Source of the DNA: Aeoliella mucimassa
Lineage (GTDB): Bacteria; Planctomycetota; Planctomycetia; Pirellulales; Lacipirellulaceae
NCBI RefSeq assembly: GCF_007748035.1
Contig: NZ_CP036278.1
Span: forward strand, 5,704,001 to 5,768,000
Reading direction: 5' to 3'
DNA length: 64,000 nt
Shown: positions 12,866 through 64,000 of the stretch, piece after piece
Layout: every line of letters starts with the position of its first letter
Position numbering within the stretch: position 1 is the first letter of the stretch
The notes under the pieces: model-generated
Seen by the model: the letters and a program-made list of their open reading frames with translations, nothing else
What the model was told of the DNA's origin: nothing
Database searches by the model: none
Made by a program: the position numbers and the translations under genes

Positions 12866-13600
12866 GATAGTTTCCCATCGGTGAGCAAATAGATTCCCAC
12901 CGCTTGCGAATAGATTCCCAATTTACCCACCGATGGGAAAATTGAATCTCCACGCACTCTACAAACCCCGTGGTTTTCGCGCTCGAATAGATTCCCATTC
13001 CCCAAAACGCATCGAGTGGGAATCTATTCGAGCCGTGGGAATCTATCGCAAGTCGTTTACCACTAACAAGTTGCATCAACACCTCCGGGATAGTTGCCCA
13101 AAATAGATTCCCATGGGTGGGTAACTATTCTGGAAGGAGTCAGGAAACAGGATTCGGGGGCCAGGGGAGTTTGGGATTTATGATTTCTGAATGGTGATTT
13201 CTGACTTGGGGATGTCATCTTGAAGGAGCTTCCAGCGACTGAAAGATCTCAGCTAGCCACTTCGAACGCACTACCAACGCGTAAGCCGTAGGATGCGGTC
13301 CAGGAGCGACAGCGACGCAGCCCCATCACCCACACGCGCAGCAGCGAACGCCCACGCCGGCAAACCTTCGCCTGCGCGTCGCCAGTAATCCGATATTTAG
13401 ACAAGCATCACATTTTATTCACCTCCAATCACTAAAAAGCCAACAGCCGATAGCCGACAGCCAACGACTACCTGTTCATTGGAACACCATAGGTGGCCAT
13501 TTTCCAGCGAAAACTGGAGCATTAAGAAAAATCGTTTAGCCCTCGACTTTACCCTCCGTTTGCGGAGGGTCGGCCTCTCAGGGCCGGGGAGGTGGGAAGC
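12866..13600. repeat. Dispersed intergenic repeat, copy 1
   Basis: First of three copies. It starts with motifs of the form AATAGATTCCCA at 12866 (variant), 12888 and 12909, spaced 22 and 21 bp, with a further one at 12986. Inverted motifs TGGGAATCTAT lie at about 13018 and 13037, and outlying ones near 13102 (forward) and 13118 (inverted). From about 13130 a long segment shared with copy 2 follows (GGAGTCAGGAAACAGGATTC, later CGCAGCAGCGAACGCCCACG, CACCTCCAATCACTAAAAA, GCCGACAGCCAACGAC), ending around the hairpin ACCCTCCGTTTGCGGAGGGT at 13551-13570. No coding function is apparent. Confidence 0.85.
12909..12949. repeat. 41-bp conserved hairpin core of the dispersed repeat
   Basis: These 41 bases are identical in all three copies (also 41718-41758 and 63930-63970). 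They fold as an imperfect hairpin: CCCA/TGGG around a CCGA loop, one A/A mismatch, six pairs (AATTT region), a two-base bulge, then AGATT/AATCT. Perfect conservation against diverged flanks suggests this is the functional core of the element. Confidence 0.85.
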
Positions 13601-41675: not shown

Positions 41676-42270
41676 GATAGATTCCCACTGCTCACAAATA
41701 GATTCCCAACGCTGGGCAATAGATTCCCAATTTACCCACCGATGGGAAAATTGAATCTCCGCTGACTCTACAAAACCAGTGGTTTTCGAGTGCGAATAGA
41801 TTCCCATTTCCCAAAACGCATCGAGTGGGAAAGTATTCTTGGGGAGGAGTCAGGAAACAGGATTCGGGGGGCAGGGGAGTTTGGGATTTATGATTTCTGA
41901 GTGATGATTTCTGACTTGCGGATGTCATCTTGAGGGAGCTTCCGGCGACTGAAAGATCTCCGCCTACTGCTTACAGCTTAAGGCCTACAGCTTCGACAAC
42001 CGCGCAGCAGCGAACGCCCACGCCAGCAACCCTTCGCCAGCGCGTCGCTAGGAGTCTGACATTTAGACCAGCATCACATCGCAATCACCTCCAATCACTA
42101 AAAAAGCCAACAGCCGATAGCTGAAAGCCGACAGCCAACGACCACCTGTCCATTAGAACACCACGGGTGGCCAATTCCTAGCGAAAAATTGAAAACCCAA
42201 TAAGACGCAATTTCACCTAAATTTAACCCTCCCGCTTGCGGGACGGGTCGGGCTATCAGGCCCGGGGAGG
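41676..42270. repeat. Dispersed intergenic repeat, copy 2
   Basis: Second copy of the element at 12866. Motifs AATAGATTCCCA (or GATAGATTCCCA) lie at 41676, 41697 and 41718, each 21 bp apart, and another at 41795, 77 bp after the third exactly as in copy 1. The 41-bp core is at 41718-41758. The region of inverted motifs found in copy 1 (about 95 bp) is absent; the sequence passes directly from CGAGTGGGAA to the shared GGAGTCAGGAAACAGG part, which then runs to about 42270 in parallel with copy 1 but with scattered substitutions. Confidence 0.85.
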
Positions 42271-63694: not shown

Positions 63695-63768
<74 letters not shown>

Positions 63769-63887: not shown

Positions 63888-64000
63888 AATAGATTCCCAC
63901 CGCTCCGAATAGATTCCCACGACACAGCAAATAGATTCCCAATTTACCCACCGATGGGAAAATTGAATCTGCTCGCACGCTATAAAACCAGTGGTTTTCG
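63888..64000. repeat. Dispersed intergenic repeat, copy 3 (cut by window end)
   Basis: Motifs AATAGATTCCCA at 63888, 63908 and 63930 (20 and 22 bp apart), then the 41-bp core at 63930-63970 without change, and the AAAACCAGTGGTTTTCG segment shared with the other copies. The part beyond the window is not visible. Confidence 0.85.

Follow-up and report, generated by a model that had tools for sequence, protein, structure and literature searches.

What kind of element is formed by a 12-bp word, here called W1 (AATAGATTCCCA), that stands in phased triplets in the chromosome of Aeoliella mucimassa, and what might such an element do there? The window analysed is a stretch of 64,000 nucleotides (C1:5704001-5768000) of the host genome (G000), which consists of a single contig of 6,608,792 bases. 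The 64-kb window holds 17 W1 matches at up to 2 mismatches, compared with an average of 2.44 and a maximum of 6 in shuffled sequences, and exact copies number 331 + 255 = 586 in the 6.6-Mb genome versus 0 + 0 for the backwards control. An initial annotation had placed three word triplets in the window, and all nine words are indeed present (with 2 mismatches at 12866, 1 mismatch at 41676 and exact matches elsewhere), as are the spacing of 20-22 bp within the triplets and a 41-bp stretch that begins at the third word and is identical in all three copies. Its count of three occurrences proved far too low, since the six blocks read from the genome (2.4 Mb of 6.61 Mb, or 36%) contain 44 full-length and 14 short, split or divergent W1 positions. 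Phased words were found in many copies outside the window, and neither a known insertion-sequence end nor a gene was identified at the element. Among the full W1 copies of these blocks, 32 of 44 lie on the plus strand.

Anatomy of the W1 elements

W1 belongs to composite elements of ~250-550 bp, most of them intergenic, whose modules follow a fixed order, as shown by alignments of 54 copies over their left halves and of 26 copies over their whole length. The span originally assigned to the element had therefore to be extended to ~550 bp so as to take in more word pairs, the dyad and the right block. The only full-length copy in the window is copy 1; copies 2 and 3 are short forms without the dyad D. 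In copy 3 (L051), H3 and the right block lie past the window end, and the dyad and H4 are absent. The parts within the window are as follows (window coordinates, strand, part, basis or quality of the match).

12866-12877, plus strand: copy 1, W1 variant GATAGTTTCCCA, the outermost word of the array (2 mismatches)
12888-12899, plus strand: copy 1, W1 word AATAGATTCCCA (word search)
12909-12949, plus strand: copy 1, third word and 41-bp imperfect inverted repeat H1 (strongly conserved, 54 copies)
12986-13028, plus strand: copy 1, H3, a word, a 19-bp loop and an inverted word (word search, alignment)
13036-13047, minus strand: copy 1, inverted word GATAGATTCCCA adjoining the dyad (1 mismatch)
13048-13075, no strand assigned: copy 1, dyad D, two 10-bp half-sites flanking 7 bp (pattern searches)
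13102-13129, plus strand: copy 1, H4, a word, 4 bp and an inverted word variant (word search, alignment)
13130-13469, no strand assigned: copy 1, variable linker with low-complexity runs and small repeats (whole-copy alignment)
13470-13513, plus strand: copy 1, right block ACCTGTTCATTGGAACACCATAGGTGGCCATTTTCCAGCGAAAA (right-block listing)
41676-41687, plus strand: copy 2, W1 word (1 mismatch)
41697-41708, plus strand: copy 2, W1 word (word search)
41718-41758, plus strand: copy 2, third word and H1 (word search)
41795-41837, plus strand: copy 2, H3 and H4 fused, dyad lost (word search)
42144-42187, plus strand: copy 2, right block (sequence)
63888-63899, plus strand: copy 3, W1 word (word search)
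63908-63919, plus strand: copy 3, W1 word (word search)
63930-63970, plus strand: copy 3, third word and H1 (word search)

A tRNA-Gly gene (window 63695-63766) ends 121 bp before copy 3.

Read from left to right, an element opens with a tandem array of one to five words, inside the last of which H1 begins. A short inverted repeat, AAAACCAGTGGTTTT, follows, and then H3, in which 19 bp separate a word from an inverted one. After one more inverted word come the dyad D and H4, the latter with 4 bp between a word and an inverted word variant. A variable linker containing small repeats leads to the right block, ACCTGTCCATTAGAACACC..GGTGGCCAATTTCCAGCGAAAA. Three words per array, suggested by the window copies, did not hold as a rule: the arrays of the 54 copies have one word in 20 cases, two in 22, three in 9, four in 1 and five in 2. 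All array spacings but one (50 of 51) measure 20-22 bp. Words exactly 21 bp apart are found at the first step in 35 of the 54 copies and at the second in 13 (0 and 0 in the offset control), and at the third in 6 copies versus 1 in the control. The right block is present in 46 of the 54 copies within the 1.4 kb read, and six of the 8 copies in which it was missed have a 1.1-kb insertion. In the first 1.6 Mb, where W1 elements were compared with genes predicted by a simple codon-score method, 36 of 37 are free of overlap (W1 only). In divergent copies (for example, those at C1:5841202, 2920270 and 3031324), H3, a stretch of ~75-95 bp and H4 are kept while the rest has changed, and the right block is usually kept too (both by eye). 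A protein-coding reading of the minus strand was rejected: the frame is free of stops in only 6 of 54 copies, the codon next to the ATG is a stop in 9 of 39 ATG-bearing copies, and one minus-strand frame looks open because the conserved words are open in it.

Several further features were seen inside the elements. The 4-bp centre of H4 (window 13114-13117) is often CCCA or TGGG, which are mutual reverse complements, as if flipped (by eye). The linkers of many copies, including that of copy 1 (window 13200-13250), carry a REP-like repeat, TGTCATCTTGAAGGAGCTTCCAGCGACTGAAAGATCT; similar intergenic repeats are common in other bacteria. The 1.1-kb insertion starts with GGCCTTGTTGAACAATTAGTCAC and lies in the linkers of six of the 54 W1 elements (L019, L031, L035, L078, L092 and L112); its aligned right halves are 94.8-100% alike, three block copies have a 327-aa reading frame, and it is read as an insertion sequence that may favour W1 elements. 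An insert with ACTACTACCGGCTGGAAGCCGGTAGG and TTCGCCTGAAGGCGAGGGTTCTAACC at its borders interrupts two W1 elements (C1:3885505-3886164 and C1:4148571-4149395) and resembles remnants of the IS200/IS605 type.

The dyad D and a second word family

D is a 28-bp dyad, GYAASTYRTT-N7-AAYRRSTTRYR. A search for GYAASTYRTT-N7-AAYRRBTTRYR at up to 1 mismatch gave 79 hits versus 0 backwards in the 2.4 Mb of G000; the pattern is nearly self-complementary and one site may count twice, and the distinct sites number 47, with 35 in W1 elements, 4 in elements of the second family (W2) and 8 alone. Across the order, with each species represented by one genome, the pattern is present in 179 of 216 genomes and the backwards control in 50 of 216, at 0-3 per genome, so that a single match in a given genome may be fortuitous. 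Around most dyads in other genomes, no flanking words were seen (by eye). Dyad strand counts are unusually high in four genomes of other families: G145 (108), G124 (70), G133 (41) and G157 (39). In G050, a protein (L212:2000-3028) encoded ~500 bp from a lone dyad by tRNA-Phe matches PF02371, an IS110-type transposase (35.1 bits).

With the dyad as a probe, a second element family was found in G000, with the word W2, GTTTTGCCCCC; the W2 search with TTTTGCCCCC gave 37 matches versus 2 backwards in the 2.4 Mb. Of 25 W2 clusters found, 5 were dropped, 4 because they span less than 60 bp and 1 because it apparently lies in coding sequence, and the remaining set of 20 was fixed before the W1-W2 spacing test. 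The common plan of both families consists of inverted word pairs flanking the dyad, then the right block, and W2 follows it to differing degrees: the dyad is found at up to 4 mismatches in 13 of the 20 clusters (a count without a control), with 4 sites only at up to 1 mismatch, and the right block GTGGCCA is readable in 8 of 20 clusters and as a variant in 5 more (by eye). Both dyad and right block are thus more degenerate here than in W1, where they stand out clearly.

The plan recurs in the genus under other words. The element that G000 carries 37 bp after the ftsH stop has a counterpart of the same plan at this locus in the congener G001, built with the word AGTTTTGTCCC; no element was found there in G002 or G003 (two of the four genus members). 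G001 has 3 exact inverted pairs of its own word, a pattern with 0 occurrences in 21 other family genomes, and a dyad of matching form can be seen by eye at each of the three loci, which together with G000 served to derive the initial dyad pattern. G003 has an element with the word GTTTTGCCCCA, a dyad and a right block, located beside tRNA-Thr CGT and a TPR/RNA_pol_A_CTD gene; the same locus carries the dyad alone in G077, a genome of another family whose TPR/RNA_pol_A_CTD protein is 60% identical over 363 aa to that of the G003 locus. The words of both congeners are close variants of W2. W2, W3 and W4 are variants of one word, with W1 as the outlier, and the case for word switching therefore rests on W1 versus that group.

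W1 element DNA was found in one of 43 family genomes, namely G000 (0 of 42 others). Profile R1 matched one of 296 order genomes, again G000, with 0 of 295 others at E<=1e-4 (strict filters, 10 candidates scored per genome shown), and the W1 inverted-pair pattern occurs in one of 392 phylum genomes (G000) and in 0 viral contigs. A collection of 84,980 species, in which the records of G000 may be left out, gave two single hits in unrelated species. The single word W1 occurs in 17 of 59 relatives including G000, at up to 4 copies outside G000. A gene next to one element, tried as a synteny marker, was not found in three congeners. A phage origin was rejected, as no viral contig has a W1 pair and the three with a W2-like pair show plain hairpins without a dyad (by eye).

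Constraint on each copy and spacing along the chromosome

No pair among the 54 left halves is closer than 6% divergence, and simple dispersal by recent duplication was rejected on this basis. In the ten closest disjoint pairs, 12 of 1393 comparisons show a difference at columns that the other 52 copies conserve, versus 122 of 545 at variable columns; each copy thus appears to be kept to its sites. Within W1 copies, the words are nearly invariant and the intervening DNA is highly variable. The right halves of L009 (C1:5716840) and L010 (C1:2530802) share 421 identical bp while their left halves are 88.5% alike, which is read as recent gene conversion between distant copies.

Compensatory change was found in 0 of 32 predicted pairs across the 54 copies. 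Moreover, the dyad halves vary independently in 115 sites drawn from the dyad matches of the order-wide search, with Watson-Crick pairs at the five degenerate positions in 63, 50, 44, 53 and 55 sites versus 56.1, 42.7, 44.7, 55.2 and 51.3 expected. Independent dyad halves, together with inverted pairs free of compensatory change, make the elements look like sites of protein-DNA type rather than RNA. The initial annotation had offered two ideas: helically phased and putatively cooperative protein binding, as at iterons or transposase-binding ends, and a single-strand or RNA role for the hairpin. Binding at phased sites gains support from the phasing in 50 of 51 spacings, from the invariance of the words amid variable DNA and from the same word-pair layout in divergent copies (by eye), and probably applies; the RNA role is not supported by the pair and dyad counts or by Rfam, which at the gathering threshold reports only a tRNA in the window and nothing in the element (two microRNA matches in copy 1 lie below the threshold, with E of 0.16 and 0.6).

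W1 and W2 together number 78 elements in the 2.4 Mb, separated by 72 gaps with a mean of 28.9 kb and a CV of 0.52, compared with 0.93 under a null of random placement among intergenic gaps of at least 200 bp (3000 draws). Gaps under 10 kb number 3 of 72 versus 20.0 expected, and both the CV and the short-gap count lie beyond all 3000 draws. For W1 alone, 1 of 52 gaps is under 10 kb versus 11.2 expected, and for full-length W1 alone, 0 of 38 versus 7.1, although the CV of the latter is less striking (0.73 versus 0.95 under the null, P 0.025); with all 25 W2 clusters kept, the count is 5 of 77 versus 22.7 expected. The two families also exclude each other: the nearest W1 to any of the 20 W2 clusters is 11,160 bp away, and 0 of 20 W2 clusters lie within 11 kb of W1 versus 10.8 expected, with no draw of 5000 giving 0. 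An early threshold of 11.9 kb was picked after the data had been seen; later spacing tests used round thresholds. Several large W1 gaps contain W2, and one 85-kb gap remains. The genome would hold ~215 elements in total if its remainder is alike. The mutual exclusion looks like a property of the shared design: as W1 and W2 have different words, it is unlikely to stem from recombination between like repeats. A role as DNA-uptake sequences was rejected because nearly all words lie in elements. Taken together, the elements are composite and constrained, resemble protein sites, and form a single quasi-regular ladder made up of two word families.

Candidate roles of the elements

Marks of REP, BIME and REPIN sequences are a GTAG or CGTC tag and an associated RAYT transposase. 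Their repeat unit is a palindrome of 20-40 bp (PMC3733652). They resemble the present elements as high-copy extragenic palindromic DNA of several types per genome, some species-specific, with palindromes oppositely oriented and often downstream of genes, and they are also reported from Planctomycetes (PMC3733652, PMC3116915, PMC2817692). In contrast, the unit described here is of ~250-550 bp with a fixed module order and constrained copies, and its quasi-regular spacing of ~29 kb forms one ladder common to two word families; D and H4 taken singly, however, are palindromes of 28 bp. Tandem words at 20-22 bp plus inverted copies are a feature that the W1 elements share with the iteron origins of plasmids. 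Nevertheless, copy 1 has no match in a collection of 72,556 plasmid records, and a plasmid origin was rejected. parS, matS and related chromosome-organising sites are single short dispersed sites for a structural protein, concentrated in one region; the elements described here are likewise dispersed, sequence-specific and putatively bound by a structural protein, but they are composite and evenly spaced wherever sampled.

The reading preferred here, tentatively and as a possible rather than a probable one, is that W1 and W2 elements are chromosome-organising nucleoprotein sites. In the proposed mechanism, a word-binding protein, whose specificity would differ by family and species, would occupy the tandem and inverted words; a second protein would bind the dyad as a dimer; and both proteins, with the right block, would fold the element into a compact complex. 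The folded complex would anchor, insulate or nucleate a chromosomal loop, and the spacing would be a functional property maintained by selection. That evenly spaced sites act in chromosome structure is our inference. The distribution along the chromosome is non-random, as expected of such sites, and even spacing, cross-exclusion, per-copy constraint and the protein-site signature point the same way, as do the shared plan under other words, the same-locus occurrence and the order-wide dyad. Against a chromosome-organising role stand the absence of W1 elements from every relative searched, which is odd for a host function, the low number of exact inverted word pairs in G001 (3), the two of four genus members without an ftsH element, the weaker dyad and right block of W2, and the wordless surroundings of most dyads in other genomes (by eye); transposition immunity can also give even spacing. 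More tentative still is a wider proposal, a Pirellulales 'ruler' of quasi-regular nucleoprotein sites in which a conserved dyad and right block would be joined by a fast-changing word, rewritten genome-wide with its protein. In G000, the W1 and W2 systems would then share a ladder, each closing gaps left by the other, as might be seen while one word system takes over from another.

The main rival is a non-autonomous mobile family whose words would be sites of a transposase with multi-site ends (Tn7/Mu/Tn3-like) and whose spacing would stem from target immunity. Ends of the Tn7/Mu type have several short tandem binding sites at ~20 bp, and neighbouring insertions are excluded; here too, dispersed copies carry short words in tandem at ~20 bp along with inverted ones, and near neighbours are excluded. 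The variable arrays and the restriction to one species in the searches made also suit a mobile family, as does the word core AATAG[A/T]T, which we take to resemble the TnsB sites of Tn7. However, target duplications at the copy borders, a mark that the initial annotation had proposed to look for, left no signal: 46 copies, whose exact ends are uncertain, show no position-specific k-mer excess over shuffled pairings. The left edge, a word array whose length varies, has no conserved terminus, the right block is unlike the left, and terminal inverted repeats at defined ends were not seen in W1 copies (all by eye). A complete unit stands at each place. Moreover, the absence of left-half pairs closer than 6% among the 54, the per-copy constraint, the mutual exclusion of W1 and W2 despite their different words and the use of the same locus after ftsH in two species all argue against mobility, which is considered rather unlikely. 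The limited searches made identified no partner enzyme; that of the genome for PF09299 (TnsB/MuA-type transposase) gave 0 matches, but its control was equally silent, so that the result weighs neither way.

A third and serious reading treats the elements as attachment-site-like, with D as a tyrosine-recombinase core, the words as arm-type sites and the lone D as a host target at gene or tRNA ends. In attP sites of phages and ICEs, inverted core half-sites surround 7 bp and repeated arm-type words lie alongside; D likewise has inverted half-sites around 7 bp flanked by repeated words, and its 10-7-10 geometry with independent halves agrees with an overlap of 6-8 bp (in geometry only). The words change while D stays. 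Among 25 loci of other genomes, D touches tRNA-Phe, tmRNA, tRNA-Pro and tRNA-Thr genes at four, the tRNA-Thr one being the G077 locus, and at a fifth it stands 24 bp away from tRNA-Ser; in addition, 4 of the 20 tRNA and tmRNA genes in the 2.4 Mb of G000 have an element within ~300 bp. Repeated 11-mers, some of which are ordinary hairpins, occur near D in 9 of 26 windows versus 14 of 156 control windows, in a test run at k = 9, 10 and 11 (18/26 versus 78/156, 15/26 versus 39/156 and 9/26 versus 14/156, respectively). The reading is weakened by the many intact copies with complete H-D-H units, as integration would cut an att-type site in two. It is further weakened by the lack of integrases: the tyrosine-recombinase motif was found in 0 of 29 D loci of other genomes (regular-expression scan, loci up to 3 kb), no integrase domain was found among 9 flanking proteins of other genomes, and integrase and cargo are absent beside the copies looked at. 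The same regular expression hit four times in the 2.4 Mb, and only one hit was judged a real integrase, a 133-aa tyrosine-recombinase fragment (C1:38376-38777, equal to L064:18376-18777, minus strand; PF00589, 77.5 bits) that lies ~1.3 kb past the right block of the W1 element at C1:36534 and could be there by chance. Attachment-site-like elements are, on this evidence, quite improbable.

Still less credit is given to a link with transcription, in which regulators would bind the elements as operators, terminators or 3'-end boundaries. Thirteen of 37 elements begin within 100 bp of a same-strand gene end, and D lies at the ends of some genes and tRNAs in other genomes, but the upstream gene is oppositely oriented in 16 of 37 elements, the few flanking genes looked at show no common function, and the chromosomal spacing is left unexplained. 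A structured RNA or single-strand DNA element, to which the predicted folding of the strong inverted repeats H1, H3 and part of H4 would point, is highly improbable given the lack of compensatory change and of dyad covariation and the sub-threshold Rfam matches of copy 1.

We know of no earlier set of sequence-defined, evenly spaced anchor or boundary sites in bacterial chromosomes. No published description of such elements was found in the literature searched, which largely excludes subscription journals, and the word W1 is in no paper of that literature. If target immunity is the cause of the spacing instead, the elements would form a large immune-element family in which two different words mutually exclude each other, which to our knowledge is also undescribed. 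If the chromosome-organising reading is true, they would be the first sites known to us that are sequence-defined and mark anchors or boundaries at even spacing along a bacterial chromosome, in a phylum known for condensed nucleoids. Both the setting of the size of bacterial chromosomal domains and the joint change of a genome-wide binding site and its protein would then become directly testable.
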